A DNA stretch of 64,000 nt from Wenyingzhuangia sp. 2_MG-2023. GTDB taxonomy: Bacteria; Bacteroidota; Bacteroidia; Flavobacteriales; Flavobacteriaceae. The notes beneath the pieces were generated by a model. The model searched no databases and was not told the origin of the DNA. It worked only from the letters and a program-made list of their open reading frames with translations. The stretch spans positions 1 to 64,000 of the forward strand of contig NZ_JAUOSB010000003.1 in assembly GCF_030548295.1 (NCBI RefSeq), read 5' to 3'. Below are positions 1,382-60,656 of the stretch, in pieces. A program made the position numbers and the translations under genes. Position 1 is the stretch's first letter. Each line of letters starts with the position of its first letter.

Positions 1382-1401
1382 AGAACTTGTTTTTTAATTA
1401 A

Positions 1402-1550: not shown

Positions 1551-1757
1551 TTATTTTCATTTTTTAAATGCTACTAAAGACAAGTCATGTGGCAGTTTAG
1601 ATCCAAAATTCTTTAAAAATGTTGCTGTGTTGGCTATTGATTTTTAGGAATCAAAAAAGTAAAAATGAAAGAAGAATTCTATAGAAAATAGTATCTTTTA
1701 CTCGTGATAAATCACAAACTATACAAGAATTGTATCAACTGTAAAAAAGAGAAAAAA

Positions 1758-2072: not shown

Positions 2073-2074
2073 GT

Positions 2075-2212: not shown

Positions 2213-2542
2213 TTTTTAAGCGCAATACAAAATGACTATTTATCAGGTATATGCTTTTACTCAAGAACTTTTTAAGATTAATCCTGGGGGAGTTATGCTT
2301 TTAAAAGTGTTGCATGCAAAATTAAACGGAAATTATGTAGAGATTTCTAGGGAGTGTTGTTGTCTTTTTTAAATCAGAATTCAGTTTGTAACTATTTTTA
2401 GAACTAAGAAAATATAACAGATATTTCTGGAAAAATGTTTGTTAACACAGAATTGTGTAACAAAAAAAATACTCTTCATTTTTTTAATGATGAGTTTATA
2501 CTTGATAAAAGGAATCAAAATAGTTAAATAAGATATAGAGTT
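2213..2542. other. Intergenic region with one doubtful short ORF
   Basis: An ATG-started frame of 46 codons (2232-2372, MTIYQVYAFTQELFK...) ends in CCCLF and looks like neither a known family nor a membrane peptide; it may be a gene remnant. The rest is AT-rich and presumably contains the promoter of the acetyltransferase at 2543. No terminator hairpin was seen. Confidence 0.3.
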
Positions 2543-3088: not shown

Positions 3089-3159
3089 TTTTGTGAAATG
3101 TATTTATTTTTAGAATAACTCATCAAACAATAATTTATATCTTTCAAGAAAAAAAATGT

Positions 3160-3861: not shown

Positions 3862-3879
3862 TAGCTACATAAAAAACAA

Positions 3880-3909
3880 AAAAGACTGCTTTTTCAAGCA
3901 GTCTTTTTT
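3880..3909 (+). terminator. Rho-independent terminator after pepE
   Basis: The stem AAAGACTGCTT pairs with AAGCAGTCTTT across a TTTC loop, and a T run follows. The A run on the left side makes it usable on the - strand too, for the convergent ribB that ends at 3930. Confidence 0.85.
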
Positions 3910-3929
3910 GTGATGGGAGTATAGTTTTT

Positions 3930-37030: not shown

Positions 37031-37087
37031 AACCATTATATTGGTTCTTTTTATTGATTATATTGTATATTTACCAATATAATGGTT
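37031..37087 (+). promoter_or_regulatory. Paired operators and promoter of the XRE-HNH-HIT module
   Basis: AACCATTATATTGGT (37031-37045) and ACCAATATAATGGTT (37073-37087) are exact reverse complements and each is itself a near palindrome, ACCAwTATAwTGGT. Their centres are 42 bp apart, four helical turns. TATATTTA at 37066-37073 resembles a -7 box between them. They fit autoregulation by the XRE protein that follows. Confidence 0.7.
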
Positions 37088-37093
37088 GAATAT

Positions 37094-37357
37094 ATGTTAG
37101 AAATTATTACAATAAAAGATATCAAAGTAAAAATAGGTAAATCTTGTGTTCTTCATAGAAAATTAAATGGAGTGTCTAGAGAACAGCTTGCTGAGGCATT
37201 GGGAGTATCTAGCACAACGATACAAAATATAGAAAATGGTAAGAATACTACATTAGATAATTTATTAAAAGTAGCCAATCATTTTAGTTTATTAGGTTCA
37301 ATTTCAAAAGAACTAGATAAGTCTATCAATCAACTTAATAATAAATCATTATACTAA
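37094..37357 (+). CDS. XRE-family HTH regulator
   Basis: 87 residues from the ATG at 37094. The in-frame ATG at 37082 lies inside the second operator and just at the expected transcription start, so I prefer the later one. The HTH spans about residues 15-65 (REQLAEALGVSSTTIQNIEN, then TLDNLLKVANHF). It is the likely autorepressor of the HNH-HIT genes 30 bp downstream, acting at the paired operators. Confidence 0.85.
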   Translation: MLEIITIKDIKVKIGKSCVLHRKLNGVSREQLAEALGVSSTTIQNIENGKNTTLDNLLKVANHFSLLGSISKELDKSINQLNNKSLY

Positions 37358-37386
37358 ATTATGTCTTTTTATATTACAAAATAAAC

Positions 37387-38418
37387 ATGCATTTACCACA
37401 AGAACAAAATATATCAATTTCTAAGCTTACATCTGTATTTAAAAACACTAGTGCAACATATAAATTTTACTGGTTTTGGGCAATATTAGAATGTGTTGAC
37501 GAAGGAAAGATTGAAATCAATAAGAAGGAAATTTTTGCTAGAATGCTAACTTTATCTTGGTATACTGTGAATTATTTTCATGTCTCATTTGGTAAACAGG
37601 ATTTAATACAAGATGCTGTTCGTACAATAAAGGATATTGAGGATCTTAATATTGATTCTAAGAAAAGTACGATTTTGGAGAAACTCTTAAAGTCGAAAAA
37701 TACGACTACTAATTCAATACTACATCATTTTGACAAAAACGTACCTCATAAATTTTTAAGCCCATGGCTTGGTACAGGATCCAAAGCAGAGGTATATTAT
37801 AGATCCTTGGATAAAAACATAAATGCTCCATATGTTCTCTTGAAAGACTCAATAATTATATTAGATAGTTGGTTAGAATATTTTAGGGGAAATAGTGGTA
37901 TATTAAAGACATTCTGTTATTGGAATTTAACTTTGTTTTTACAAGCTAGAAATCCTAATGTACCTGATATTCCAAATAAAATACAAAGACCAATTATAAG
38001 AGGAAGTCTAAATAATCACAAAAAAATGTTTTGGGACTTGGTTATAAATGAATTAGGTTATATAAATTGTATTTATACTGGGGAAAAATTAGTATTAGGA
38101 GGTTATATTATTGAACATTTTATACCACACCAATTTGTTGCACATGATTTAATGTGGAATTTAATACCTGCTGAGTCTAGTTTTAATTCTAGTAAAAGTG
38201 ATAAACTGCCCAGTTTTGAAACTTACTTTGATGATTTTTATAAGCTTCAAAAAGAAGGTTACGATATTATTAAAACAATTAGACCTAAAAATAAATTTCT
38301 TCAAGATTACTTATCCATATTTCCTAATCAACAGTTTAGTAAATTGAAATATGAAGAACTAATAAAACCAATGCTTACTATTGCTCATAATAATGGTTTT
38401 CAATATATGAACTCATGA
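37387..38418 (+). CDS. HNH endonuclease domain protein
   Basis: 343 residues. The C-terminal third holds an HNH-type site: CIYTGEKLVLGGYIIEHFIP, then HQFVAHDLMWNLIPAES and SKSDKLPSF, with the conserved histidine-asparagine pattern. The N-terminal 200 residues are helical with no known domain. The zinc-binding cysteine pairs usual in many HNH proteins are absent. It overlaps the HIT gene by 4 bp (ATGA). Probably an anti-phage nuclease whose activity is tied to the HIT protein. Confidence 0.75.
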   Translation: MHLPQEQNISISKLTSVFKNTSATYKFYWFWAILECVDEGKIEINKKEIFARMLTLSWYTVNYFHVSFGKQDLIQDAVRTIKDIEDLNIDSKKSTILEKLLKSKNTTTNSILHHFDKNVPHKFLSPWLGTGSKAEVYYRSLDKNINAPYVLLKDSIIILDSWLEYFRGNSGILKTFCYWNLTLFLQARNPNVPDIPNKIQRPIIRGSLNNHKKMFWDLVINELGYINCIYTGEKLVLGGYIIEHFIPHQFVAHDLMWNLIPAESSFNSSKSDKLPSFETYFDDFYKLQKEGYDIIKTIRPKNKFLQDYLSIFPNQQFSKLKYEELIKPMLTIAHNNGFQYMNS

Positions 38419-38780
38419 AAAATTTCTTAAATATTCCTGAAACTGCAATCATTTTTAAAAATAAATACTTTTTTATCATAAAAGATACTTTTCCTGTTTC
38501 TCCTGGACATCTTTTAATTATTTCTAATGAGCTACGAAAAGATTATTTTGATTTGACTAAAGATGAAATAGATAGCTTACCAGAAGTTATAAGCCAAGCA
38601 AGATTGTTAATTGATAAGAATAATTCTCCAGACGGCTATAATATTGGAATGAATTGTGGAAAATATGCTGGACAAACCATTTACCACTTCCATTGTCATG
38701 TTATTCCAAGATACAAAGGAGATATTGAATATCCTGAAGGAGGGGTTAGAGGTGTGATACCTAGTAAGATGAAATATTAA
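38415..38780 (+). CDS. HIT-family protein
   Basis: 121 residues. The histidine triad is HFHCHVIPRY near residue 92. HIT proteins hydrolyse or transfer nucleoside monophosphates from adenylylated or dinucleotide substrates. The ATGA overlap with the HNH gene shows the two are translated together, so this may be a nucleotide-signal hydrolase or an off-switch for a defence nuclease rather than a housekeeping enzyme. Confidence 0.9.
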   Translation: MKNFLNIPETAIIFKNKYFFIIKDTFPVSPGHLLIISNELRKDYFDLTKDEIDSLPEVISQARLLIDKNNSPDGYNIGMNCGKYAGQTIYHFHCHVIPRYKGDIEYPEGGVRGVIPSKMKY

Positions 38781-38850
38781 GTTATTCTTTTATTTATCTT
38801 AATTCTATTAATAACTCTAAATATAAAAAGATATTTAATGTTTAATAATT

Positions 38851-38948
38851 ATACCCAATAGGGTATTTATTGGTTTGTATATTATCTAAATATACCCTTT
38901 TGGGTGTATTTATGTTTTATTTTAGTATATTGCACCCATAAAGGTATA
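38851..38948 (+). promoter_or_regulatory. Three HipB-type operators
   Basis: ATACCCAATAGGGTAT (38851-38866, perfect palindrome), ATACCCTTTTGGGTGT (38892-38907) and CACCCATAAAGGTATA (38933-38948, weaker) are spaced about 40 bp apart. The last ends 3 bp before the hipB start. TATATTG at 38926-38932 could be part of a -7 box. They fit cooperative autorepression by HipB. Confidence 0.7.
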
Positions 38949-38951
38949 AAT

Positions 38952-39194
38952 ATGGAGGAGCGAAATAGAAATAATGACATTGCTTTGTTTGTAAGAGAGA
39001 GCCGTAAAAAAGCAAACTTAACTCAAGTTGAATTAGTAGATATAACAGGAGTCGGTTTACGTTTTTTACGAGAACTAGAACAAGGAAAACCTAATTTAAT
39101 GACTGATAAAATCAATCAAGTATTATTGTTTTTTGGTCACACATTAACTATCAAACCTATAAGCGATGAGACAAGGAGAAGTATGGGTTCATGA
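38952..39194 (+). CDS. hipB: HipB-like HTH antitoxin
   Basis: 80 residues from the ATG at 38952; the upstream in-frame ATG at 38904 lies inside the operator region. The HTH is ALFVRESRKKANLTQVELVD then TGVGLRFLRELEQGK. The C-terminal strand VLLFFGHTLTIKP is typical of HipB. It overlaps hipS by 29 bp and is the expected autorepressor and antitoxin or co-repressor. Confidence 0.88.
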   Translation: MEERNRNNDIALFVRESRKKANLTQVELVDITGVGLRFLRELEQGKPNLMTDKINQVLLFFGHTLTIKPISDETRRSMGS

Positions 39195-39486
39195 TCAGTT
39201 TGCAGGGCTGTTAACTGAAAACGAAGAAGGTTATGTATTTTGTTATGATACAGATTATCTAAAAAATGACTCAGCAAAAGCTGTTAGTCTAACACTTCCT
39301 TTGCAATCTAAACCTTTTGAAAGTAGATATATGTTTTCTTTTTTTGATGGACTAATACCGGAAGGTTGGTTATTAGAAATTGCTCATAAAAATTGGAAAT
39401 TAAACCCTAGAGATAGAATGGGGTTGTTATTAACCACTTGTAGAGACTGTATAGGTAATATAAGTATAATTCCTGTAGACTTATGA
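39166..39486 (+). CDS. HipA N-terminal subdomain protein (HipS-like)
   Basis: 106 residues containing only the N-subdomain 1 of HipA: GEVWVHDQFAGLLTENEEG, VSLTLPLQ and the FFDGLIPEGWL block. In HipBST systems this piece is a separate antitoxin that restrains the kinase. It overlaps hipB by 29 bp and the kinase gene by 4 bp. Confidence 0.85.
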   Translation: MRQGEVWVHDQFAGLLTENEEGYVFCYDTDYLKNDSAKAVSLTLPLQSKPFESRYMFSFFDGLIPEGWLLEIAHKNWKLNPRDRMGLLLTTCRDCIGNISIIPVDL

Positions 39487-40439
39487 TTTGTTTAGCTTGT
39501 TTAAAGAAAATAGAACCAAATACTGGAATTGCTAATTACCATAAAAATTGTTTGAAAGAGTTTTGGCAAGAAGATGAACCAGTATTTAATTTAGATTATG
39601 AAGTTTCAGAGATTGAGGATTTAGCCAAACAAAATATAGCTCAAAGAGTAATTGTAACGGGGGTACAGCCTAAATTATCTTTAGGGTTTACAGAGGGGCA
39701 AAAAGAATCTAGATTGACTATCGTAGGAGCATTGAATGGAAAATATATTTTAAAACCACCTTTCCAGTTGTATCCACAAATGCCTGAAATAGAGGCTTTA
39801 TCTATGTTGTTAGCTAAAGCTTGTGGTATTGCTACAGTTCCATTTTTATTGATTCCTTTAAAAGATGGTACGTTGGCTTATTTAACAAAAAGGATTGATA
39901 GAGGATTAGGAGATGTTAAGTTTCCTATGGAAGATGCTTGTCAGTTTACTGATAGGCTTACAGAGCATAAGTATAAAGGATCTTACGAACAAATAGCAAA
40001 AGGGATTATAGCTTTTACACAAAACCCATTAATTCATGTAGTTAAGTTTTATGAGCAAGTATTAGTTTCTTTTTTAATAGGGAATAATGATATGCATTTA
40101 AAGAATTTTTCTGTAATAGCTTTAGATCATCAAAATTATCAATTAACACCTGTATATGATATGGTAGCTGTAAATCTTCTAATTCCTGAAGATGAAGAAG
40201 AATTAGCTTTAAACTTAAATGGAAAGAAAAGGAAATTAAAAAGAAGTGATTTTGAAATTGCGATGAACAAAGCTCATATTCCCACTAAAGCTATCAGTAA
40301 CTTGTTTAAGCGTATAGAAAAAGGGATGGAAAAAAGGAGTGAGTTAATCGATGCTAGTTTTTTAACAAAAACTAAAAAAGACCAGCTAAAAAGTATCATA
40401 GCAGAGAGAGCTAAACAGATAGAAATAGATCTATTGTAG
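39483..40439 (+). CDS. HipA-like kinase core (HipT-like)
   Basis: 318 residues. It starts with a zinc-finger-like segment (MICLACLKKIEPNTGIANY, then HKNCLKEFW) that classic HipA lacks. The kinase core follows: the gly-rich/autophosphorylation region VTGVQPKLSL, lysine in GKYILKPP, catalytic NNDMHLKNFSVI and metal-binding YDMVAV. HipA kinases stop growth by phosphorylating an aminoacyl-tRNA synthetase. The three-gene order HTH, N-subdomain, kinase is the HipBST layout. Confidence 0.85.
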   Translation: MICLACLKKIEPNTGIANYHKNCLKEFWQEDEPVFNLDYEVSEIEDLAKQNIAQRVIVTGVQPKLSLGFTEGQKESRLTIVGALNGKYILKPPFQLYPQMPEIEALSMLLAKACGIATVPFLLIPLKDGTLAYLTKRIDRGLGDVKFPMEDACQFTDRLTEHKYKGSYEQIAKGIIAFTQNPLIHVVKFYEQVLVSFLIGNNDMHLKNFSVIALDHQNYQLTPVYDMVAVNLLIPEDEEELALNLNGKKRKLKRSDFEIAMNKAHIPTKAISNLFKRIEKGMEKRSELIDASFLTKTKKDQLKSIIAERAKQIEIDLL

Positions 40440-40528: not shown

Positions 40529-42910
40529 ATGTTGAATGCTATTAATAAAAAAGACCTGTCTGAAAGAGACATATGTACCAAATATATCAATCCTGCTATT
40601 GAAAAATCAGGATGGAATATGCGTACACAAGTAAGAGAAGAAGTGACTTTTACAGATGGTAGAATCATTGTCCAAGGAAACTTATATACAAGAGGTAGAA
40701 ACAAGCGAGCCGATTATATTTTATATTATAAATCGAACATTCCATTAGCAATTATTGAAGCTAAGGACAATAAAAAAGCGGTAGGACATGGAATGCAGCA
40801 AGCATTAGAATATTCTGAAATCTTACAAATACCATTTGTGTTTACTTCTAATGGTGATTCTTTTGTATTTCATGATAAAACTACAACTGATAGTGTTTTA
40901 GAACAAGAGTTAAGTTTAGACAACTTTCCTTCCCCTGAAGTTTTATGGAAAAAATATTTAAAACATCAAAACCTAGATACTCCACAAGCGCAAGAAATAG
41001 TTGAGAAAGATTACTATACCGATGATAGTGGAATGAGTCCTAGATACTATCAGCAAAATGCAGTTAATAGAACTCTAGAAGCCATTGCAAAAGAGCAAAA
41101 TCGAATTATTTTGGTAATGGCAACGGGGACAGGAAAAACCTATACAGCATTTAATATTATCTGGAGACTTTGGAAAACAGGAGTTAAGAAACGTATTTTG
41201 TTTTTAGCCGATAGAAATGCCTTGTTAACTCAAACCAAAAACGGTGATTTTTCTCCCTTTGGGAATGATATCATGCATATCATAAAAAACAGAAAGATAG
41301 ATAAATCCTATCAAATTTACTTTGCCTTGTACCAGGGGTTAACAAGTAATGATGAAGCCAAAAATGCTTACAAAGAGTTTAGCCAAGATTTCTTTGATTT
41401 AGTGGTGATTGATGAATGTCATAGGGGTTCAGCATCTGAAGCTTCTGCATGGAGAGAAGTATTAGATTATTTTTCTTCAGCTACCCAAATTGGATTGACA
41501 GCAACACCTAAAGAAACCAAAGATGTTTCTAATATGGAATATTTTGGAGAACCTGTATATACGTATTCTTTAAAGCAAGGGATTGATGATGGTTTTTTAG
41601 CACCGTACAAAGTAGTTAGAATTACCACAAATATTGATGAAGGTTGGAGACCCACAGCAGGGTTAGTAGACAAATATGGTAACGAGGTAGAAGACCGTAT
41701 TTACAATCTAAAAGATTATGATAGAACTTTAGCGATTGATGAAAGAACCGAAACCATTGCTAAAAAAATCACAGAATATTTAAAAGCTACAGATCGTTTT
41801 GCTAAAACCATTGTATTCTGTACAGATATTGACCATGCCAACAGAATGAGACAAGCATTGATCAATGAAAATGCAGATTTAGTGGCCAAGCATTGGAATT
41901 ATTGTGTGAAAATTACGGGAGATGATGAAGTAGGAAAACAAGAACTAGACAATTTTACTGATGTAGAAGAACGTTTTCCTGTCATAGCAACAACGTCTAA
42001 AATGTTAACTACGGGAATTGATACCAAAATGGTCAAGGTGATTGTGTTAGAATCAAACATTCAATCGGTTACAGAATTTAAACAAATTATAGGTAGAGGA
42101 ACTAGAATACGTGAAGCGGAAGGAAAAGTATACTTCACTATCATGGACTTTAGAAAAGCGACAAATATTTTTGCTAGACCTGATTTTGATGGAGATCCGG
42201 TACAGATTTATGAACCACAACCTGAGGATCCTATCACTCCTCCAGACGAAGCAACATCGTCACAAACAGAGGAAGGTGAAGAACCCGCTCCAAAAGATTT
42301 TAAATCTACAAAACCTAATGTTGATATTGTCGAAAATCCAAATGAGGTAAAAAAATATTACGTCAATCAAATTCCTGTTTCTGTGGTACATGAGCGTGTT
42401 CAATATTATGGGAAAGATGGAAAGTTAATTACGGAATCGTTAAAAGACTATTCTAAAAAGAACATAGAAAAAGAGTTTTCTTCTCTAGATGAATTTATTC
42501 AAAGATGGAATACCTCAGAAAAAAAAGAAGAACTCATAAAAGAGCTTACGGAACATGGAGTATTATTAGAAGTACTCCGTGAAGAAGTAGGTCAAAATTT
42601 AGATGATTTTGATTTAATCTGTCACATTGCCTTTGACCAACCTGTTTTAACCAGACAAGAACGTGCGAACAATGTTCGTAAACGTAATTATTTCACAAAA
42701 TATAGTGATACGGCTCAAAAGGTGTTAAATAGCTTATTAGACAAATACGAGCATGAAGGGATAACTTCTATAGAACAAGGTGCCATTCTTAAAATAAAAC
42801 CATTGAATGAAATGGGATCTCCTGTTGAATTGGTTAGAGCCTTTGGTAAAAAGAAAGACTTTGATGATGCCATCAAAGAATTAGAGAACGAAATTTATAC
42901 TATTGCATAA
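40529..42910 (+). CDS. hsdR: Type I restriction enzyme, HsdR subunit
   Basis: 793 residues. An N-terminal PD-(D/E)XK nuclease (KRADYILYYKSNIPLAIIEAK near residue 75) precedes the SF2 motor: Walker A ATGTGKTYTA, VIDECHRGS, GLTATPKE and motif VI QIIGRGTRIRE. The C-terminal EcoEI-type domain ends near the HNH start. It cuts DNA far from unmethylated sites in a complex with HsdM and HsdS. The stop overlaps the next start by one base (TAATG), so the operon order is hsdR - HNH - hsdM - hsdS. Confidence 0.95.
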   Translation: MLNAINKKDLSERDICTKYINPAIEKSGWNMRTQVREEVTFTDGRIIVQGNLYTRGRNKRADYILYYKSNIPLAIIEAKDNKKAVGHGMQQALEYSEILQIPFVFTSNGDSFVFHDKTTTDSVLEQELSLDNFPSPEVLWKKYLKHQNLDTPQAQEIVEKDYYTDDSGMSPRYYQQNAVNRTLEAIAKEQNRIILVMATGTGKTYTAFNIIWRLWKTGVKKRILFLADRNALLTQTKNGDFSPFGNDIMHIIKNRKIDKSYQIYFALYQGLTSNDEAKNAYKEFSQDFFDLVVIDECHRGSASEASAWREVLDYFSSATQIGLTATPKETKDVSNMEYFGEPVYTYSLKQGIDDGFLAPYKVVRITTNIDEGWRPTAGLVDKYGNEVEDRIYNLKDYDRTLAIDERTETIAKKITEYLKATDRFAKTIVFCTDIDHANRMRQALINENADLVAKHWNYCVKITGDDEVGKQELDNFTDVEERFPVIATTSKMLTTGIDTKMVKVIVLESNIQSVTEFKQIIGRGTRIREAEGKVYFTIMDFRKATNIFARPDFDGDPVQIYEPQPEDPITPPDEATSSQTEEGEEPAPKDFKSTKPNVDIVENPNEVKKYYVNQIPVSVVHERVQYYGKDGKLITESLKDYSKKNIEKEFSSLDEFIQRWNTSEKKEELIKELTEHGVLLEVLREEVGQNLDDFDLICHIAFDQPVLTRQERANNVRKRNYFTKYSDTAQKVLNSLLDKYEHEGITSIEQGAILKIKPLNEMGSPVELVRAFGKKKDFDDAIKELENEIYTIA

Positions 42911-43746
42911 TGTTTAGATACACTGATATACAATGGATTCGTAATGTTAAGCATGAAGGTGGTGAAAACGGAGCTTATTTCGATGATGATAAAGATGAAA
43001 TGATTTTGCATTGGTCATCTTCATATGTAAATCAACCAACACATGCAATGAAACCAAAAGTTGGTGATATTGTTGTCTTGTTTCAGAAATTTAATAATGA
43101 CGACCAAGTTTACTTCACACATTTATTAACTCCAAAAGATTCTGTTGAGAAAGACTGTTTAGAAACAAGTCCAAAGCATCGTTGGGGTAGAAAAATGATA
43201 GTTTTGGCAAGAACAAAAAAAATAATAAAACCATTAAACTTTAATCTTAAAAGCGTTAATCAAGGACATACATACCCTATTGGATTATGTAATAAAAATG
43301 CTACAAAAGAAGATGTCCAAAAAATCATTTGGGATGCTTTTAATCCATTTTTTAGAAAAGATGTTTCAAGTAGATTTATTGAAGAATTATCTAGTAACTT
43401 TTTAGTAAATACTTTAGATGAATTTGAAGGTGAAGAAGGGAAATGGAATTTTGCAATGCATCGATATAGAGAAAGAGATAATAGTTTAATCAGAAAAAAG
43501 AAAGTATCTGTTAAAAATCCAATATGTGAATGTTGTAATTTTGATTTTTCTAAATTTTATCCAAATCATGGAAATGGTTTTATTGAATGCCACCATAAAA
43601 CCCCAATAAGTAAAGGAGAAAGAATAACGAAATTAGAAGATTTAGCTTTGGTTTATGCCAATTGTCACAGAATGCTACATAGAAAAAACAATCAACAGAA
43701 CTATTATACAGTTGAAGAACTTAAAGAAATTATAAGTAATGAGTAA
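42910..43746 (+). CDS. McrA-type HNH endonuclease embedded in the hsd operon
   Basis: 278 residues. The N-terminal half (KVGDIVVLFQKFNNDDQVYF, THLLTPKD) may be an EVE/PUA-like reader domain. The C-terminus is a full HNH: PICECCNFDF, FIECHHKTPISKGE and LALVYANCHRMLHR, with a cysteine-zinc site. It overlaps hsdR by 1 bp and hsdM by 8 bp. A modification-dependent nuclease lodged between hsdR and hsdM would add protection against phages that evade the type I enzyme; this is inference. Confidence 0.8.
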   Translation: MFRYTDIQWIRNVKHEGGENGAYFDDDKDEMILHWSSSYVNQPTHAMKPKVGDIVVLFQKFNNDDQVYFTHLLTPKDSVEKDCLETSPKHRWGRKMIVLARTKKIIKPLNFNLKSVNQGHTYPIGLCNKNATKEDVQKIIWDAFNPFFRKDVSSRFIEELSSNFLVNTLDEFEGEEGKWNFAMHRYRERDNSLIRKKKVSVKNPICECCNFDFSKFYPNHGNGFIECHHKTPISKGERITKLEDLALVYANCHRMLHRKNNQQNYYTVEELKEIISNE

Positions 43747-45169
43747 CATAACAACCAACATAAAAGGAATACGCGATATCATGCGTAAAGATACAGGAGT
43801 AGATGGAGATGCACAACGTATTTCACAAATGGTCTGGATGCTTTTTATGAAAATATTTGCTGATAAGGAAGAAGAATGGGAAATCACCATAGACAATTAT
43901 GTATCCCCTATTCCAGAAAAATTAAAATGGCAAAATTGGGCTGCTGATGAGGAAGGATTAACGGGAGATGCCTTAATGGAGTTTATAGAAACAGAATTAT
44001 TTCCTACTTTAAAAGACTTAGACATTACCATCAGTCCTCAAGCAAAAATTATACGTGCTGTATTTGATGATACCTATAACTTTATGAAAAACGGAACACT
44101 CTTCCGTCAAGTCATCAATGTCATCAACCAAATAGATTTTAATAGTACTTCAGAACGTCATGTGTTTAATGATATTTACGAAACCATTTTAAAAGACTTG
44201 CAGTCTGCGGGTTCATCTGGAGAGTATTACACTCCAAGAGCTGTAACGCAGTTTATGGTAGACATGATCAACCCACAATTGGGTGAAAGTGTTCTAGACC
44301 CTGCCTGTGGAACAGGTGGTTTTTTAACTTGTACAATTGATGGAGTCCGTAACCAAGTAAAAACACCAAAAGATAGAGAAATACTACAAAATTCCATTCG
44401 TGGTATAGAGAAAAAACCATTACCCCATTTATTGTGTACTACCAATTTAATGTTGCACGGTTTTGATGTACCGGTAGTTCGTAGAGATAATTTATTAAGC
44501 AAACCTTATGCGGATTGGGGTGCAAAAGATAAGTTAGACATCATTTTGTCGAATCCACCTTTTGGAGGAGTGGAAGAAGATGGTACCGAAACTAATTTCC
44601 CTCAAAAATTTAGAACCAAAGAAACGGCCGATTTATTCCTAGCCTTAATCATTAAATTGTTAAAAGACAAAGGTCGTTGTGCCATTGTATTGCCTGACGG
44701 TACGTTGTTTGGTGAAGGTATGAAAACCCGTTTAAAGGAAGAATTACTAACCAAATGTAATCTACATACCATTGTACGTTTGCCTAATGGGGTGTTTAAT
44801 CCTTATACAGGTATAAAAACTAATTTATTGTTTTTTGAAAAAGGAACACCAACCAAAGAAATTTGGTATTATGAACATCCGTATCCGGAAGGAGTAAAAA
44901 GTTACAACAAAGGAAAACCCATCCACATTAACGAGTTTGAGACTGAAAAAGCATGGTGGAAAAACCGTGTAGAAAACAAACAAGCTTGGAAAGTTTCTAT
45001 TGATGAGATAAAAAAACGAGGTTATAATTTAGATATTAAAAACCCACACCAAGAAGCAGATACCTTGGCAAGTCCAGAAGTATTGTTAGAAAAATTTAGA
45101 ACTACCGAAGCTAAAATTTCCACCATACAAGACAAAATTATAAACGTATTAACCGAAGCTTTAAAATAG
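43739..45169 (+). CDS. hsdM: Type I DNA methyltransferase, HsdM subunit
   Basis: 476 residues. A helical N-terminal HsdM_N domain is followed by the adenine-N6 methyltransferase core, with SAM motif DPACGTGGFL near residue 195 and the catalytic NPPFGG near residue 275. It methylates the sequence chosen by HsdS. It is separated from hsdS by a 68-bp spacer that contains a dispersed repeat hairpin. Confidence 0.95.
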   Translation: MSNITTNIKGIRDIMRKDTGVDGDAQRISQMVWMLFMKIFADKEEEWEITIDNYVSPIPEKLKWQNWAADEEGLTGDALMEFIETELFPTLKDLDITISPQAKIIRAVFDDTYNFMKNGTLFRQVINVINQIDFNSTSERHVFNDIYETILKDLQSAGSSGEYYTPRAVTQFMVDMINPQLGESVLDPACGTGGFLTCTIDGVRNQVKTPKDREILQNSIRGIEKKPLPHLLCTTNLMLHGFDVPVVRRDNLLSKPYADWGAKDKLDIILSNPPFGGVEEDGTETNFPQKFRTKETADLFLALIIKLLKDKGRCAIVLPDGTLFGEGMKTRLKEELLTKCNLHTIVRLPNGVFNPYTGIKTNLLFFEKGTPTKEIWYYEHPYPEGVKSYNKGKPIHINEFETEKAWWKNRVENKQAWKVSIDEIKKRGYNLDIKNPHQEADTLASPEVLLEKFRTTEAKISTIQDKIINVLTEALK

Positions 45170-45181
45170 AAATTCACAACT

Positions 45182-45225
45182 GATTGCTGTCAGTTCGAGC
45201 ACAGTCGAGAACAAAGCAAGCAATC
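45182..45225. repeat. Dispersed hairpin repeat in the hsdM-hsdS spacer
   Basis: GATTGCT (45182) pairs with AGCAATC (45219), enclosing GTCAGTTCGAGCACAGTC then GAGAAC, a sequence that I recall as a frequent intergenic repeat in flavobacteria. It sits directly before the hsdS start and could affect HsdS translation. Confidence 0.5.
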
Positions 45226-45237
45226 TCTTAATTACAT

Positions 45238-46860
45238 ATGAAACTACTACAACATTTTAAAGAACTTACGGTAAACCCCAAAAATGCCCAAGAATTAAAA
45301 GGATTGATTTTGAAATTGGCAGTTCAAGGTAAGTTAACTGCAAATTGGAGAAAAGAAAACTCAGATATTGAGCCTGCTTCGGAATTATTGAAGAAAATAA
45401 AGAAAGATAAAGCAAAGGGAAATTATGAATTAAGTGAAAAAGAAAAACCGTTTAATTTACCTAACACTTGGGTTTGGAGTTTGCTCGGGAAATTATGCTC
45501 AGTTCAAACAGGGAAAAAGGATGCAAATTACGGTACTGACAATGGACAATTTAATTTTTATACCTGTGCCCAAAAACCAATAAAAAGCCCGACTTATACT
45601 TTTGAAGGTGAGTCAATAATTCTTCCGGGAAATGGTGCAAATGTTGGTTTAGTAACATTTGTAAATGAAAAATTCGAAGCATATCAGAGAACATATGTCT
45701 TAAATAAATTTAATCATTTATATCCTCTGTATATAAAAACAGCTTTAGAAGCTTTATGGAAAGATAATTTAGGTAGACAATATGGTTCTGCAATTAATTA
45801 TATAAAAATGGGAAACATTACAGAGTTTAAGTTTCCCATTCCACCACTAGAAGAACAAAAAGAAATCGTAAACGTAGTAGAAACCCTTTTTAAAGAAGTA
45901 GAACAATTAGAGCAATTAACAGTAGAGCGTATCAACTTAAAAGAAGACTTTGTAACATCTGCATTAAAACAACTCACCACAAATAACACAAACAAAGAAT
46001 GGTCTTTTTTAGAAGCCCATTTTAAAAGTTTCTTTAATGAAACTACCAACATTAAAAAGTTACGAGAAACCGTTTTACAATTAGCCGTTCAAGGAAAACT
46101 AACTGAAGATTGGAGAAATAGTAATCCTGAACTCGTTTCAGGATCTAATCATGCCAACCAACTCCTAAAAAACATTCAAGAAGAAAAAGCACAGCTTATT
46201 GCAGACAAAAAAATAAAAAAGGAAAAAGCATTACCACCAATATCCAAAGAGGAAATTCCTTATGACTTACCTGAAGGTTGGGTTTGGTGTAGGATAGGAG
46301 AGATTTCAAGTGTTAGGGTTGGTGCAACACCCAAAAGAGATATTCAAGAATATTGGAATGGTGAAATTCCATGGGTATCAAGTGGAGAGGTGGCTAATAA
46401 TTTTATTCTAGATACAGAAGAGAAAATTACTGAGAAAGGATTATCTGAGTCATCAGTAACAATTTACCCAATTGGAACAGTTTTAGTAGCTATGATTGGT
46501 CAAGGTAAAACACGTGGTCAAACTTCAATACTTAAAATTAATGCAGGAACAAATCAAAATGTAGGTGGAATAATAATTTTTCATGATTATTTGATTTCAG
46601 AATATTTATGGCAGTTTTTTTTAGGTAGGTATGAGAAAACTAGGTCAAATGCAGTTGGTGGCAATCAGCCTGCTATAAACGGTACTAAATTAAAAATGTC
46701 TGTATTTGGGTTGCCACCGTTAAAAGAACAAAAAGCCATAGTAAAAAAAGTAAATGCTTTAATGGGGTTATGTGACAGTTTAGAACAAGAAATACAACAA
46801 AGCCAACAACATAATGAGCAGTTAATGCAAAGTGTGTTACGTGAGGTTTTTGAGAACTAA
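45238..46860 (+). CDS. hsdS: Type I specificity subunit HsdS
   Basis: 540 residues with two target-recognition domains (about 75-210 and 335-490), each preceded by a repeated segment: ELKGLILKLAVQGKLTANWR near residue 20 and KLRETVLQLAVQGKLTEDWR near residue 276. The helical spacers (LPPLKEQKAIVKKVNALMGL at the end) hold the two domains apart. HsdS sets the bipartite recognition site. The second repeat is followed by NPELVSGS, encoded by a REP-like palindrome. Confidence 0.93.
   Translation: MKLLQHFKELTVNPKNAQELKGLILKLAVQGKLTANWRKENSDIEPASELLKKIKKDKAKGNYELSEKEKPFNLPNTWVWSLLGKLCSVQTGKKDANYGTDNGQFNFYTCAQKPIKSPTYTFEGESIILPGNGANVGLVTFVNEKFEAYQRTYVLNKFNHLYPLYIKTALEALWKDNLGRQYGSAINYIKMGNITEFKFPIPPLEEQKEIVNVVETLFKEVEQLEQLTVERINLKEDFVTSALKQLTTNNTNKEWSFLEAHFKSFFNETTNIKKLRETVLQLAVQGKLTEDWRNSNPELVSGSNHANQLLKNIQEEKAQLIADKKIKKEKALPPISKEEIPYDLPEGWVWCRIGEISSVRVGATPKRDIQEYWNGEIPWVSSGEVANNFILDTEEKITEKGLSESSVTIYPIGTVLVAMIGQGKTRGQTSILKINAGTNQNVGGIIIFHDYLISEYLWQFFLGRYEKTRSNAVGGNQPAINGTKLKMSVFGLPPLKEQKAIVKKVNALMGLCDSLEQEIQQSQQHNEQLMQSVLREVFEN
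46125..46143. repeat. REP-like palindrome inside hsdS
   Basis: TCCTGAACTCGTTTCAGGA is an inverted repeat (TCCTGAA/TTCAGGA, one mismatch) translated in frame as NPELVSGS in the linker between HsdS halves. The same peptide occurs, as I recall, at repeat insertions in other Bacteroidota genes. Confidence 0.5.
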
Positions 46861-50770: not shown

Positions 50771-52699
50771 ATGATAAAATATACAAGACAATTAAAATCG
50801 AAAATTTTCAAAATAATCAATTCTCAACCGGTTGCATTTAATGCAAAGGATGGTGATTGGGATAATGACGGAATCATAAGGTTTTTAAATAATATTTGGG
50901 ATTTAAAAACGATGCCAATAGTATCAGGCGATACACGTTGGTCAAATGCTTACGAGGATGCTGTTCAACATTTAGTAAATAATCCTGATGATTGGTCTTA
51001 TGAGCAAACTTTTTTAGATTATTTTAAATTATTAGAAAAAGATGAAGATTTTACTAAGTTTTTGGAAACAGTCGTTCACCCTAATTTTAGAAATGATTTA
51101 GAAGAAATAAATTTACATGTCTCACTAATTAACCTTGAGTTATCTGCTATTAATTATACAATGGCAGTTTCGGATTATCAGGAGGATTTACCTATTTATA
51201 CCTTAAGAGAAAGAAAACAAAATGATAGAGTAGATCTATTAATAAACACAATACCTTTTGTAGTTGATGAGAATAACTCTGAATATCCTTATTTTTATCT
51301 GTTTTCGAATGATTGGGATGATTACGGGAGTAAAACGAAATTTAAGCTATTATATCATGAAGGTGTTAACAATGTTAAAGAAATAGGTTATGTTAAAATC
51401 ACTGATGGTGTAAATGACAAAACTATAGATGTTATTGATAAAAAGTTTACTAACCTGAAGGATTCATTTTGTTCATTGGGTACCAATGAGGAGTATTATA
51501 CAAATCTTCAAAGTATATTTAAGCACAATTTTCAAAGTGTTTTATTTGCTTTAAAAGATTCAGCTTTTTTTATTGATATTAATGATAAATTTAGCTCGAA
51601 TAGTATATATCAAAATTCATTAACCAGAGATGATAGTACAGAACAGTTTTCAAGAAATATCAAGCATATATTAGAAGGAAGAAGTCTTGACGATAAATAT
51701 AAGTTTAAATATAGTTTTATTCCTAACTACTCTGAAACTCCTGTAGAAATAGATTTAAATTTTAAAAACACTCTAGAGTTTTCTGATAGAATATTTGCAG
51801 TAATTGGTAGGAATGGAGCTGGTAAAACACAATTAATAACTAGTTTGCCAATTGATATATCGGAGCAGAATTTAGGTTCTTTTTCACCTGAAATACCTAT
51901 TTTCAGTAAAGTGATAGCAGTTTCTTACAGTGTATTTGATAGTTTTAAAAAACCAAATCAGCACAATGACTTTAACTATGTGTTTTGTGGCTTATTGAAT
52001 GAAGATAATAATATCCCTAATAAAAGGGAGAAAACACAAAGTTTTCTTGAAGCTTATAAGATTATTAAACGTCACAATAGAGTTGATAAATGGAAAAATG
52101 TTTTGATGTCTTTTATAATGAATGACGAATTAGATGATGTTTTTATTAGAAATTTCAATAATGATGCTAGTGATTACAATACATTCAAAATAATTGAGTC
52201 TGAATTTATTAAACTTATTGATAAACTTAGTTCTGGTCAAAGTATTATGTTAGAAATAATGACTAAAATCATAGCTAATATTAGATATGATTCATTAATA
52301 CTTTTTGATGAACCAGAAACACATTTACATCCAAATGCAATTTCTCAACTCATAAGTTCAATTTATGAATTAGTAGAACAATTTGATTCATATTGCTTAA
52401 TCACAACACATTCACCAATAATCATTCAAAATATTTTTGGGAAAAATGTTTATGTAATGGAAAAAGATGAAAACCATCCAATTTTAAGAAAAATAGGAAT
52501 TGAGTGCTTCGGTGAAAACCTAAGTGTCCTTACTGAGGATGTTTTTGGAAACAGAGACATGCAAAAACAATACAAAGTAATTTTAGACAGAATGATTAAA
52601 CAATATGGTGACTATAGTCAAATTGTAGAATTAATTGAAACACACAATCTTCCACTGAGTTTAAATGCTAAAGTATATCTAAAGAGTAAAACATTTTGA
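50771..52699 (+). CDS. ABC-type AAA ATPase (Septu PtuA-like)
   Basis: 642 residues. Walker A IGRNGAGKTQLI near residue 340, ABC signature KLSSGQSIML near residue 485, Walker B LILFDEPETHLHP and the switch TTHSPI. This SMC/OLD-type arrangement with an HNH gene overlapping by 4 bp is the layout of Septu (PtuA/PtuB). The N-terminal 330 residues are longer than in the Septu members I remember and show no domain. The ATPase is thought to control the nuclease in response to phage. Confidence 0.8.
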   Translation: MIKYTRQLKSKIFKIINSQPVAFNAKDGDWDNDGIIRFLNNIWDLKTMPIVSGDTRWSNAYEDAVQHLVNNPDDWSYEQTFLDYFKLLEKDEDFTKFLETVVHPNFRNDLEEINLHVSLINLELSAINYTMAVSDYQEDLPIYTLRERKQNDRVDLLINTIPFVVDENNSEYPYFYLFSNDWDDYGSKTKFKLLYHEGVNNVKEIGYVKITDGVNDKTIDVIDKKFTNLKDSFCSLGTNEEYYTNLQSIFKHNFQSVLFALKDSAFFIDINDKFSSNSIYQNSLTRDDSTEQFSRNIKHILEGRSLDDKYKFKYSFIPNYSETPVEIDLNFKNTLEFSDRIFAVIGRNGAGKTQLITSLPIDISEQNLGSFSPEIPIFSKVIAVSYSVFDSFKKPNQHNDFNYVFCGLLNEDNNIPNKREKTQSFLEAYKIIKRHNRVDKWKNVLMSFIMNDELDDVFIRNFNNDASDYNTFKIIESEFIKLIDKLSSGQSIMLEIMTKIIANIRYDSLILFDEPETHLHPNAISQLISSIYELVEQFDSYCLITTHSPIIIQNIFGKNVYVMEKDENHPILRKIGIECFGENLSVLTEDVFGNRDMQKQYKVILDRMIKQYGDYSQIVELIETHNLPLSLNAKVYLKSKTF

Positions 52700-53529
52700 A
52701 AAACATAAAATCATATACTGGTAGTGATATTGGCTTTCACAATGATATAGTTAATAATAGTTTGAAGAAAGGTGATGTAAAAGACAATCTAATTAGCAAC
52801 AAACATATTATCGAGGCATCTTTTGCTGACTATAAAATTAGATTTGAAAACAAGAATTTATTTGATGTTTCTGCACATGGATTTATAGGAGAAAACAAAT
52901 CAAACTTATTAAAGCTATATTCTTCACAAAGGAAAGCGATCGTAGAATTAAAAACTGAATTAACAACTGACGATAATAACAGAAGGAACAATATCTGCCC
53001 TAATTGTACCATAGAAACAGTTAGTTCTCTTGATCACTTTATTCCAAAAGAAGAATTCCCTGAGTTTTCCGTAAATCCAATTAACCTGATCCCTTGTTGT
53101 ACTACATGTAACTCAAAGAAAAAGGAATTCTGGAAAAACGATGAGCAAATGTTTTTTTTGAATTTGTACTCTGATATCATCCCAAATGAACAATTTTTGT
53201 TTGTTACTATTTATTCTAATATTGACTTTAGTTTTGAGATAAAAAATGTTCACAATATAGATGATGACTTATTTAATGTAATTGAAAGTCATTATGATAA
53301 GTTGGAATTACTTCAGCGCTTCAAAGAGAATGCGGATAATGAAATTTCTGAACTAGAATATTTGATAGATAGCTGTGACGATAAGACTCAAGACGAGTTA
53401 GCTAGATTTCTTCTTGCTCATTATAAAAACAAGGAAGCTAAGTTTGGTATGAATAATTGGAAGATAGTACTTGTTAAAGCTATGATTGAAAGTGGTCTTT
53501 ATTTTAGAGATGAGATGATAAATAATTAA
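52696..53529 (+). CDS. HNH endonuclease (Septu PtuB-like)
   Basis: 277 residues starting at a TTG that overlaps the ATPase stop. The HNH lies in the middle: CPNCTIETVSSLDHFIPKEE, then INLIPCCTTCNSKKKEFW, with two CxxC pairs for zinc. It is the effector nuclease of the pair. It ends 40 bp before the convergent small-protein genes; that gap has no clear terminator. Confidence 0.8.
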   Translation: MKNIKSYTGSDIGFHNDIVNNSLKKGDVKDNLISNKHIIEASFADYKIRFENKNLFDVSAHGFIGENKSNLLKLYSSQRKAIVELKTELTTDDNNRRNNICPNCTIETVSSLDHFIPKEEFPEFSVNPINLIPCCTTCNSKKKEFWKNDEQMFFLNLYSDIIPNEQFLFVTIYSNIDFSFEIKNVHNIDDDLFNVIESHYDKLELLQRFKENADNEISELEYLIDSCDDKTQDELARFLLAHYKNKEAKFGMNNWKIVLVKAMIESGLYFRDEMINN

Positions 53530-54059: not shown

Positions 54060-54297
54060 GTTCTTTAAAATCATTTTGATTTGAAGCCATCATAGCCATA
54101 TTTCTAACCATTTCATTAACTGTATTCAAGTCTATTCTTTTGTTAGGTGAATATCTAACCTTAGTAATTCCATCTACAGAGTGTCTTAAACCCTCAGCTA
54201 TGGTTAATTTACCCTGCTCCATTAATTCTGCTAAAAGGTTCAAGTGTCTTTCAAATTCTAGTCTAGAATCTCTGTAGTTCTTTCTACTTTCAATCAT
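54052..54297 (-). CDS. Small paralogue 1 of the AVAST-like operon
   Basis: 81 residues. Core ITKVRYSPNKRIDLNTVNEM then VRNMAMM, N-terminus MIESRKNYRDSRLEFERHLN. No membrane segment. Its start overlaps the STAND gene stop by 8 bp (ATGATTGA). Position and size fit the small second component (Avs1B-like) of type 1 AVAST, though I cannot confirm homology. Confidence 0.8.
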   Translation of the reverse strand: MIESRKNYRDSRLEFERHLNLLAELMEQGKLTIAEGLRHSVDGITKVRYSPNKRIDLNTVNEMVRNMAMMASNQNDFKEHD

Positions 54298-57200
54298 TGT
54301 TTAAAATTTCAAAAATTGTTTTCAGGTTATTCTTATTTACTACGGAGGTAATAGCTGTATTTAAAGCGTGGTTTAATATATCATCGTATCTACCTCTATA
54401 TTGTGTTTCATCGTAAAAACTCCTGCGAAGATATTTGTCTGACTTTATAAGGTCAATAGGTTTTAAAGGATAACAATATTCTTTCACTTTTGAGGTTAGT
54501 ATTTCACAAAACTTCCCGTTTAAAAGTTCTTCATTATTTAATTCTTCTAAAGTGTCATCAATAGGTCTTAGGAAATCTTCTTCTAAGAAAATGTCACCTG
54601 TTTTAATAGGTGAATCTAGAATTGTTTTATTTATCTCATTTTCTAGTTTTTTATAACCTATCTTTTGAATATTATTTGCTAATACGATGTAATTGTACTT
54701 AATTGTGAAATGAGAGAGCTTAGCTATTTGACTCACAAAACCAGGTTCTGTTTCTAGTGTTTTTATTATTATTTCTGGGTTTATCTCCGAAACCCTTTTT
54801 AGTATATGAGAACTTATCTCAGTTGATAATAAAGGGGCTTCAGATAGAGTAGACTCTATTAGCTTCATTATTATTTCTTCTCCTAAATATGTCGCTAATT
54901 CTACTAAAGTATTAAATGTTTTTTCTCTAACATTAGTGAAAGGGTGATTAAGTAGCCATATTAAAAAATCAATGATTTGAGAATTGCTACTGAGTTTTTC
55001 ATTTTCGTTATCTAACCAAGAGTACTTTTCTTTCACAGCGTCATCAGGACGAATAATGTAATGAAAATGGTTATTAACAATTTTATAGATATCTTCTATT
55101 TGTGGTTTTGCTATTTTACCTTCTAAAAACCATATTACTTCTTTACAGACTGACCAAGGAGTTTCATTGAATTTTAATATGTCATAACATAAAGTCTCTG
55201 TTATTTCTGTATCGGTTTCTAATAGTTTTTTTATATTTCTTTTCGATTTACTATGTTCTCCAGACCAGTTGTTATACCATATGCTTATTTTCTCTTTTTC
55301 AAAAGAATTAATCCCAGATTCTACTAATTGTAACCTATTTGTGGTTGAGTTTACAGAGTTATTGAACTTTTCGAATTCTGAAACCTTTTTGTTTTTTTCT
55401 AGTGGTTGGCTTTCTATCGTTTTCTCTTCTTCATTTTCTGAACCCCAAGAAATACCTCTGTTAATTAAATGCGATTTTAAACGAATTATGTTCGAGGATG
55501 TTAAATCAATGTATAGTTTATTTAAAAGAGCTGCTGTGTCATCTTTATTTAGTTCTTGGTCTTCAATAATTTCGGAGAGGCTTTCAGTTATATTTTCAAT
55601 GTAAGAATTATCTAAAGCTTCTATTTTATTTAATACTTTAGCAATTTCCTCTCCATAAGAAATTATATATCTAAAGTTATCATCATTAATAGTGAATACT
55701 TTACATAACGCCCATTTTAAATAGGGAGATAAATCTTCAATATTTTTTAAGATTTTTAGTATACCACTTTGTTCAACAAAATTTCTTGCACCTAGATTAT
55801 AACCATTTCCTATTGTTGGAGCATCAAACGCACTTTTCTCAGCATTGTCTATTAATAATGATGGAGAAGGAAGAATTTCTTGTCTAAAGTATTCTAGTGC
55901 AGAATCTAGTCTACCGTTTATAATCAGACTACTAATAAAACCTTCTTTTTCATACCTTACATATCTCTGAAAAGTCATTTCTCCTGAAGCATAATCTAGT
56001 AAAGAAGCATAGTCTTTAATATATTTGTTAATACTAGTACTATCGTTTTTTAAATAAGAAAGTGTAGAATTCAATAAGTCTAATTGAGCTTCTTTGTACC
56101 AAGTAGGTCCCATGGATGTGTTTAAAACTTCTTGAAACGTATCGTCAAATTCTGATGTTTTACCCAAAAGGGCATATATCTCAGTTATTTTTAATAATTC
56201 TTCGGTACGTTCCCATCTGTTTTGTACTCCATTTAGGATATGTTGTTTCCATAATTGTGCTAAAGATTCTATTTTTGATGTTTCATAATTTAGAAGTAAC
56301 AACTGCTTGATTATTTCATATAATACTTCTCTATAGCCTTCTGAAAAAAGTCCCAATTGATCAGTGGTATTTTGCTTAATATCTTCAAGAAAGGAGTCTA
56401 ATTCATCATTATTGAAGTTATAATATAAGTTGACTAGTTCTTTATATAGTAAAGGAAATACAGCTTCTGGTAACTGATAGCTTCTGTTCCAATGACTTCT
56501 TTCTTCGAATGAAAAATTTAAAGAAGATCTAATCAATTGAAGCTGTACTTTGATAGCTTTAAAACCTTCTGAATCATCTTTAGATTTTAAATTATAAGCT
56601 TTCCCTTCAATAAAATGAAGGAGAACAATTAGACTCTCTAAATAGTATTCCCAACCATTTTCTCCCCATCTATCTTTGACTTTTGGAAATATTCCGTCTT
56701 CATTTATATAGCCTTTACATTTGGATTCGAATTCAATATTTATAAAATCCGGAAAATTAAAATCTACTCCATTTTTGTCTCTTATACTACTTGTGTTTAT
56801 TTCAAAATCAAAATATTTATTAATAAGCTCCCTAACTAGAGAAATATTCTTACTATCTTCTAAAAGAGATTTAATTAGGATTGTAATTTCTGCTTTATCA
56901 TTAATATAACCGTGATTAGAAATTAGATATTCAATATCATTCACGATTTTAAAGCAATTGTCATTTTCGTCATAATAATTAGTATTGTATTGATTAATTT
57001 CGTCATAATGAAGTCTTGCAAGAGCTATCATTTTTGCCCATTTGCTATCTATGGATACGCCTGACATTTCTGAAGCTTCTATAGATGAAACATGAATATC
57101 TCTTGATCTGAGCATGTATGCTTTATTCCAAGATGCACAGAATTCTCTTATTAAATAAAGGTTAGATGTATTATTGTTTTCAGTATCTGCTTCACTTTCA

Positions 57201-59473: not shown

Positions 59474-59474
59474 A

Positions 59475-60656
59475 TTATAAATCAAATTTTATAGGTTTCG
59501 AACCATTCATTTCAGTTATCTGATAGTTATATTTTTGCTTTAATTCATCATTTTTAAAAGCTTCAATAGATTCTAATGGATATGTAAAAAACAACTCTTT
59601 AACGTTTGTTGTTTTTTGGTGAATTATTCTAGCTATAGTTTCTTTATCTGGATGATTATGTGTTTTTCCATTGGTTGAAAATATATACTTTTGAGACGTA
59701 ATCATTTTTAATAATTCTAAATTTGTATTATTTTGACTTCCATGATGTGAAACTTTTATTAAATCAAAATATATAGGGAAATCTTCTTCGTTATAATGTG
59801 ATTTAAGACTATTAATAATAATTGAGGGATGAGAATCTGCTAAAAACAGTAGCTTCTTTTTTTTGTATTCTATAACAAATGCTATTGAGCTTCCGTTGGC
59901 GGATCTATCGTCTTCATAGAAAGTAGATTTAGCTAATTCGTCTATATTTAAACCAGTGGTTGATATGTTTTTCTTTTTTAATAATTTTTGCTCTTTTTGA
60001 AGTGCCACTAAAGATTCAAAAGCTATTTCACTAAACCCTTCTAAATCTTCTGTAGTGGAGTATCCTTTTTGATATAACTCTTTTTTCCAATCTTTATTTA
60101 GAGTAGAAAGCTTTTCATTAGAAGGAGATAATAATTTTAATGTAATTTCGTCTGTTAACTTGATAGTTGTTTTAATGTCTATAGAAATAGCTTTACCATT
60201 AAATTCAGCATTCCAATTATATTTATTTTCAAATAAAATTGAAGCTAATGTTGAGCCTTGAACAGAAGAAATATCTTTTGTAGTTTCAGTTTGCTCTTCT
60301 TTTAAATTATAATTAACCTGCAATTCTTTTACTGATTTTCCTTTGAATTTTATATTGGGATTAAACTCCTTTATGTGTTTGAATGAATTGTGCCATATAT
60401 TTTCAATTTGAATAAAAGAAGTACTATTGTTTTCTTTTAGAAGTTTAATAATCCCTGAAATATGATCTCCATCAATGTGAGTAACAACTAGATGATTTAA
60501 TGACAAATCTAAAGAACTTAAATTAAGAAGTTCAGGCTTAATAAAATTATTAAAAGTGTCTACATAACCACCATCTATAAGCATTGTATAGTCATCGATT
60601 TTAATAAAAATAGAATCTCCATTTAAGGAGGGTAAAATACTCACAGAAGAACACAT
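59475..60656 (-). CDS. Metallo-beta-lactamase-fold hydrolase (ComEC-like, Avs1A-like)
   Basis: 393 residues. Metal site VVTHIDGDHISG near residue 60 (HxDxDH in place of the usual HxHxDH), LFLADSHPS, VSHHGSQNN near residue 310 and GKTHNHPDKETI near residue 333, the order of ComEC/Rec2-type hydrolases. No membrane segments are present. It is the first gene of the operon and ends 1 bp before the STAND gene start. It may be the effector hydrolase unleashed by the NTPase. Confidence 0.85.
   Translation of the reverse strand: MCSSVSILPSLNGDSIFIKIDDYTMLIDGGYVDTFNNFIKPELLNLSSLDLSLNHLVVTHIDGDHISGIIKLLKENNSTSFIQIENIWHNSFKHIKEFNPNIKFKGKSVKELQVNYNLKEEQTETTKDISSVQGSTLASILFENKYNWNAEFNGKAISIDIKTTIKLTDEITLKLLSPSNEKLSTLNKDWKKELYQKGYSTTEDLEGFSEIAFESLVALQKEQKLLKKKNISTTGLNIDELAKSTFYEDDRSANGSSIAFVIEYKKKKLLFLADSHPSIIINSLKSHYNEEDFPIYFDLIKVSHHGSQNNTNLELLKMITSQKYIFSTNGKTHNHPDKETIARIIHQKTTNVKELFFTYPLESIEAFKNDELKQKYNYQITEMNGSKPIKFDL

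Follow-up and report, generated by a model that had tools for sequence, protein, structure and literature searches.

The locus described here raises the question of whether an HNH nuclease and a HIT enzyme encoded by overlapping genes form a defence system, and whether the XRE-type repressor gene in front of them belongs to it. The window is the whole analysed stretch of 64,000 nucleotides from Wenyingzhuangia sp. 2_MG-2023. The sequence-only reading had taken the three genes as one candidate defence unit, in which the HIT enzyme gates the nuclease through nucleotide signalling or adenylylation. The features concerned are listed below.

37031–37045 and 37073–37087, no strand: the two arms of a perfect 15-bp inverted repeat, directly 5' of the XRE start
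37082–37357, plus strand: XRE open reading frame (HTH_3), 91 aa; Pfam HTH_3, 2e-12
37387–38418, plus strand: HNH nuclease open reading frame, 343 aa; Pfam HNH_4, 1e-7, residues 228–275
38415–38780, plus strand: HIT enzyme open reading frame, 121 aa; Pfam HIT, 5e-19
37328–40426, plus strand: 3.1-kb block in common with W. heitensis (L001), containing the HNH, HIT and hipB/S/T-like genes; 89% identity
38952–40439: HipB/S/T-like genes 3' of HIT, by domain matches (Pfam and NCBIfam)

The order XRE, HNH, HIT and the ATGA overlap of the last two genes were as the sequence-only reading had them, according to the coordinates of the open reading frames and the Pfam matches, all three of which are above the family cut-offs. 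Other genes on the 3' side in the window are a type I restriction system, GmrSD-like genes, a PDC-M01 pair and an Avs1-like pair. These restriction and defence genes 3' of HNH-HIT make the window a defence island. The hsdS gene and one GmrSD-like gene are matches of PADLOC models; hsdR, hsdM and the second GmrSD-like gene were named by reading.

The type I restriction operon occupies 40529–46860, with a separate HNH gene (42910–43746) between hsdR and hsdM, and is followed by a GIY-YIG gene and two GmrSD-like genes. The PDC-M01A/B pair (a PtuAB-like ATPase, 1001 bits, and an HNH protein) is at 50771–53529. The Avs1-like pair is on the minus strand at 54290–60656. Its protease-STAND protein matches Avs1b with 812 bits, and its MBL protein matches LmuA with 309 bits and Avs1a with 286 bits. 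The HipB/S/T-like genes, a split toxin locus of HipBST-like type, accompany HNH-HIT in W. heitensis as well.

The HNH–HIT pair is real. It was sought in other genomes, as had been proposed from the sequence alone, and it recurs there with an adjacency far beyond chance. Among 395 Bacteroidota genomes, a sample less biased than the HNH relatives below, the HNH profile matched in 30 (E 1e-3), the HIT profile in 35 (E 1e-25) and both in 20. With a HIT profile built from HITs already adjoining HNH, the genes are adjacent in 20/20 of the genomes that have both (Fisher p 2e-16 when the window genome is left out). The 30 HNH matches cover most of the profile in 11 genomes and the HNH half only in 18, and one is a broken fragment. 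Ten HNH genomes are without HIT, and 15 HIT genomes are without this HNH.

Among 54 HNH relatives, the gene directly 3' encodes a HIT enzyme in 13 and a methyltransferase–HIT (MTase-HIT) fusion in 11. One further fusion, in L019, is cut by the contig end, which brings the paired loci to 25. The fusion is about 286 residues long, and HIT forms its C-terminal half. The 29 unpaired loci include three (L029, L043, and L053) with at most 200 bp of 3' sequence, L029 having 200 bp. When four loci are set aside (two at contig edges, two broken), 50 HNH genomes are left. Half of them (25) have an adjacent HIT, and the other 25, L029 among them, have no strong HIT of this type: a weak match of about 43 bits is present elsewhere in two, and the remaining 23 contain none at E 1e-10.

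Seen from the HIT side in the 395-genome sample, 25 matches reach at least 150 bits (16 fusions and 9 short proteins), and 20 of them touch this HNH family. Three of the 25 (L141, L146, and L149) touch another HNH family (Pfam HNH_2), and two (G532 and G566) touch neither. The HIT gene of G532 is beside a thioredoxin-type gene, and the neighbour of that of G566 has no Pfam match. Motif inspection of the surroundings of weaker HIT matches in 10 genomes flagged no HNH neighbour. In L149, a gene of the second HNH family (PHKPFLLL motif, HNH_2), HIT, Vsr and a C5 methylase stand in a row at 1061–3932.

The companion of the nuclease is variable. On a tree of HNH proteins (48 rows, quick method), the companion states are HIT in 12, fusion in 12 and none in 24, and 5 changes are needed to explain them; none of 200 shuffles gave so few. 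HNH and HIT distances are correlated over 23 pairs (r 0.88; 0/5000 permutations), a correlation that common descent could produce by itself. Flavobacterium clades and L004 stably keep HNH without HIT. Broken HNH genes are found in 5 of the 54 loci, and the HIT beside the broken gene of L022 and of L054 is intact.

Plasmids add further arrangements. The surroundings of seven close relatives of HIT on plasmids were opened, and in four of them HIT directly adjoins an HNH or HNH-like gene. The order is HIT–HNH in Polaromonas and Aromatoleum, with an ATGA overlap in the latter, and HNH–HIT in Hymenobacter canadensis and Persicobacter. The neighbourhoods of the other three (Jeotgalibacillus, Pontibacillus, and Methylosinus) are without an annotated HNH. 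In 18 opened plasmid neighbourhoods of HNH, a separate methyltransferase of about 195–215 aa is beside HNH in five: Pseudoalteromonas HL-AS1, P. donghaensis (0.3 kb off), two Acinetobacter plasmids and Roseomonas. In the remaining 13, neither HIT nor a methyltransferase directly adjoins HNH; in Allochromatium and P. shioyasakiensis, methyltransferases are present at a greater distance. The proteobacterial methyltransferases beside HNH are similar to enzymes of the TehB/UbiG type and have low scores with the MTase–HIT profile; TIGR04096 is not among the matches listed for the five that were scanned (the best 25 of 26 for three of them). On account of these two observations, they are taken as probable separate recruitments. 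Comparison across lineages shows a swapping of the companion, be it HIT or methyltransferase. In viral contigs no HNH relative was found, and four loci match the MTase part only; the phage collection contains one unannotated record with an HNH relative.

The HNH protein consists of an N-terminal winged-helix-like domain with the motif SATYKF and a C-terminal part of the Cas9 HNH type. H244, N258, and N267 are unchanged across 48 aligned sequences, and together with the HNH_4 match above cut-off they give the protein the catalytic motif of type II/IV-like HNH restriction endonucleases. Distant plasmid HNHs have the motif [ST]xxYK and the HNH core in common (13 rows aligned). The AF2 model has a pLDDT of 80 for the full protein and of 92 for the N-terminal 192 residues alone. 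The C-terminal domain resembles the HNH domains of Cas9 in structure (Z about 5) and by profile (E 4e-4). The best structural matches of the N-terminal model are the winged-helix domains of ORC1 and Sir3 (Z 6.0, a weak resemblance), and Foldseek returned no match below E 0.001 for either model. The N-terminal domain is a putative winged-helix-like reader of nucleic acids. By eye, the N-terminus with SATYKF looks like the one with PHKPFLLL in the other HNH family, but profile comparison (probability 0.3%) did not support homology of the two.

The triad of the window HIT is HFHCH, in agreement with the HxHxH of the HIT superfamily, and histidines 91, 93, and 95 are invariant in 25 aligned sequences. 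The triad histidines are lost in two MTase-HIT fusions of the wider sample (L139 and L143), so that the triads are mostly kept. By sequence, the PDB entries nearest to the window HIT are hypothetical HIT proteins, Ap4A phosphorylases and FHIT; the 42 entries listed include none under the name aprataxin. FHIT-type enzymes cleave dinucleotides, and aprataxin removes 5'-AMP from DNA. The only PADLOC match of the window HIT is the ThsC model, which is weak (8e-10). The MTase half of the fusion matches TIGR04096 in its N-terminal part at 6e-16, below the cut-off.

The defence setting proposed for the pair holds for the window, which is a clear defence island, and elsewhere HNH is enriched near restriction-type genes. 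DUF3427 helicase-nucleases, a family picked after being noticed among HNH neighbours, are present in 17/50 HNH genomes and, in 10/50, are no more than 10 kb away from HNH, versus 0.1 expected. An N6 methylase (matches down to about E 1e-9) is within 20 kb of HNH in 7/50 genomes versus 1.1 expected (P 7e-5), and a C5 methylase is within 10 kb in 4/50 versus 0.24 expected (P 1e-4), the latter count being based on 48 of 50 listed matches after two fragments beside already counted matches were dropped. All three expectations assume uniform placement and ignore contig ends. In the phylum sample, a C5 methylase is beside the pair in 4/23 paired genomes and near HNH in 0/9 HNH-only genomes. G353 and G427 are paired genomes with a C5 methylase, and G509 and G558 are such genomes with the other HNH family; the pair in the window has no C5 methylase beside it.

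That the pair occurs mainly outside defence islands, which the sequence-only reading named as its own refutation, is not indicated, though possible. A marker scan found a restriction- or defence-type neighbour at 14/25 paired and 10/29 unpaired loci and none at 30/54 (11/25 of the paired ones), a scan that is partly circular as several queries were taken from the same loci. A pair of a MazG-like gene and a DUF2075-type helicase gene recurs near HNH in L015, L035, L037, L040, L041, and L051; the L015 copy shows GIY-YIG by Pfam.

DndC- or SspD-like genes are near HNH at 5/12 MTase–HIT loci, 0/13 HIT loci and 0/29 HNH-only loci (hypergeometric 2.5e-4). The DndD profile gave nothing over the cut-off in seven relatives, including the five DndC/SspD genomes. 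Phosphorothioation as the general function was rejected on these grounds, and a phosphorothioation link would at most concern a subset or be a relic. In L042 (G622:C124), the genes are dndC, a dndD stub of about 48 codons, RNase H, UvrD, HNH and MTase-HIT; this dnd operon is apparently interrupted by the HNH/MTase-HIT module. An SspD-like PP-loop gene directly adjoins HNH-MTase-HIT in L011 (-1173 to -13) and L032 (+1929 to +3029, relative to HNH), where the surrounding genes are mostly housekeeping-looking.

The XRE gene fares otherwise. Its paired operators, claimed from the letters alone, correspond to the perfect inverted repeat just 5' of its start. The claim that XRE, HNH and HIT are a single unit was not borne out: inspection by eye of open reading frames of at least 60 aa found no comparable XRE gene that directly precedes HNH on the same strand in the 54 relatives, of which L038 offers 73 bp of 5' sequence only. 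In L025 and L030, there is an XRE-like gene, but it is encoded on the other strand. The HNH of W. heitensis is 92% identical to that of the window, and L001 has no XRE gene there; the block in common with it begins at 37328, within the last 30 nt of the XRE gene, and the rest of XRE is outside. At E 1e-8, XRE relatives are present in three other genomes (L113–L115) among 149 genomes of the family. In all three, the relative directly precedes a gene whose product matches HipA_C and Couple_hipA above cut-off. The nearest NCBIfam model for XRE itself is couple_hipB (4e-9, below cut-off).

The XRE gene is thus probably a neighbour rather than a part of the module. The simplest reading of the comparison is that it is an orphan hipB, placed with operators of its own at a cassette junction, and the repressor most likely comes from another locus of hipBA type that has been lost in part. 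The inverted repeat is then a probable operator pair of XRE, not of the module. XRE as a regulator of HNH-HIT is less likely, since it is not conserved in relatives, is outside the block in common with L001 and has kin that precede hipA. Two distant cyanobacterial HNH relatives speak in favour of this less likely reading. The Calothrix protein has an HTH_3 domain at its own N-terminus (28.8 bits, above cut-off), and so has that of Synechocystis (22.0 bits, just below cut-off), which indicates that in other lineages this nuclease has become fused to a domain of XRE type. These HTH_3-HNH fusion genes are at L061 7743–9119 and L064 95–1468.

In the literature searched (open-licence PMC papers), no description of the HNH–HIT pair was found, nor was a published system of the same architecture. 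The modification-dependent (type IV) restriction enzymes ScoMcrA, HhiV4I and the wH-HNH group join a winged-helix reader to an HNH nuclease, according to excerpts of PMC11037411, as the window protein may do too, and ScoMcrA is among the weak structural matches of the full HNH model (Z 5.0). Unlike the enzymes in those excerpts, the window HNH has a Cas9-like HNH_4 core and no SRA/PUA domain by Pfam. A HIT or MTase-HIT companion is a feature of the HNH module, and none is described for wH-HNH enzymes in the excerpts of PMC11037411.

Thoeris type II likewise has a HIT protein, ThsC, in a defence setting (excerpts of PMC8565338), and its model is the one matching the window HIT. Unlike in Thoeris II as given there, the partner of HIT is an HNH nuclease. 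ThsC stands beside ThsA and the TIR protein ThsB; the genes adjoining the window HIT and HNH are XRE, HNH and HipB/S/T-like, and the scanned ones contain neither SIR2 nor TIR. Septu PtuAB and PDC-M01 are likewise two-gene defence systems with an HNH nuclease, and PtuB models give weak matches to the HNH core of some distant HNH relatives. The partner in Septu is an ATPase, whereas that of the HNH module is HIT or a methyltransferase, and the PtuA-like system of the window (50771–53529) is separate from HNH-HIT. The DNA phosphorothioation systems Dnd/Ssp have an accessory methyltransferase, TIGR04096, which the MTase half of the fusion matches below the cut-off. Unlike in Dnd/Ssp, neither DndC nor SspD is near HNH at loci of the HIT form (13) or with HNH only (29). 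DndI appears in the excerpted text of PMC11662687. A reappraisal of Dnd names HNH and helicase-nucleases in its excerpted text (PMC10853773), and the whole word HIT is absent from its main text.

How the companion acts on the nuclease can be read in several ways. One reading is that the HIT enzyme makes or removes a nucleotide signal or an adenylyl group and so switches HNH on during infection. The triad, intact in 25/25 aligned companions, the overlap of the two genes, and the occurrence of the HIT protein ThsC, the sole PADLOC match, in Thoeris II (excerpts of PMC8565338) are in its favour. Nevertheless it is unlikely: 25/50 HNH genomes have no strong HIT of this type, a general domain scan of a few neighbours showed no nucleotide-signal synthase, and proteobacterial plasmids have companions that are methyltransferases only. 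That half of the HNH genomes are without HIT argues against HIT as an obligatory activator or antitoxin, and the obligatory gate envisaged in the sequence-only reading is weakened by it. A toxin-antitoxin pair, with HNH as the toxin and HIT (or the methyltransferase) as the antitoxin, would suit two small overlapping genes with an XRE gene 5', as well as the broken HNH copies (5/54) and the HIT kept beside them in L022 and L054. A toxin should not be kept without its antitoxin, yet HNH is intact in L004 and in whole Flavobacterium clades whose genomes have no strong HIT elsewhere, so HIT is unneeded for survival there; moreover, XRE is not conserved. This makes the toxin-antitoxin reading improbable, although HNH may have another antitoxin.

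The possibility that HNH nicks foreign DNA and that an aprataxin-like HIT removes the 5'-AMP left by ligase, so that the nicks stay open, is very improbable. Helicase-nucleases are neighbours and 5'-AMP-DNA hydrolases exist among HIT enzymes, but the best matches of this HIT are FHIT/Ap4A-phosphorylase-like proteins, with aprataxin not named in the 42 entries listed, and the methyltransferase companions are left unexplained. HNH might also be a selfish, homing-type gene, linked to defence only through common residence in mobile islands. Its sporadic distribution (30/395 genomes), its broken copies (5/54), the housekeeping-looking surroundings of some loci (by eye) and its position behind the dndD stub in L042 would agree with this. 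The recurrent adjacency of HIT or methyltransferase, in both gene orders and across phyla, would be unexpected for a homing gene, and we consider this origin improbable.

Alongside the observed pairing, swapped companions, kept HNH residues, mostly kept HIT triads and enrichment of restriction-type genes, the reading preferred here, held with moderate confidence, is that HNH-HIT represents one variant of an undescribed nuclease module of restriction type with two genes, in which a HIT or methyltransferase companion is accessory or an off-switch. Its effector would be the protein of about 345 aa with an N-terminal winged-helix-like reader and a C-terminal Cas9-like HNH nuclease, which may cut foreign DNA. 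The companion would be the FHIT/Ap4A-phosphorylase-like HIT enzyme from the overlapping gene, in many relatives joined to the C-terminal side of a SAM-dependent methyltransferase, and might hydrolyse a nucleotide or nucleotidyl group, or else act on a methyl acceptor. It would limit the nuclease or clean up after it, as an off-switch or accessory and not as an obligatory activator. The best reading of the genomes compared is that this companion of HNH is dispensable.

A bolder possibility, itself improbable, is that the companion handles a SAM- or adenylyl-containing molecule and thereby sets the activity or the self/non-self choice of the Cas9-HNH-like nuclease. SAM–AMP is a known signal. Candidate substrates would be a SAM-AMP-like conjugate or DNA adenylylated by a PP-loop (DndC/SspD-like) enzyme. 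If this were true, the module would be a new kind of restriction system, controlled by a small molecule or by a DNA adenylate.

The pair of HNH with HIT or methyltransferase, for which no name was found, is present in Bacteroidota and on proteobacterial plasmids, and is a target for phage assays. The natural forms with and without HIT make the role of the companion directly testable. The presence of an MTase-HIT fusion beside a nuclease suggests novel nucleotide or DNA chemistry in bacterial defence.
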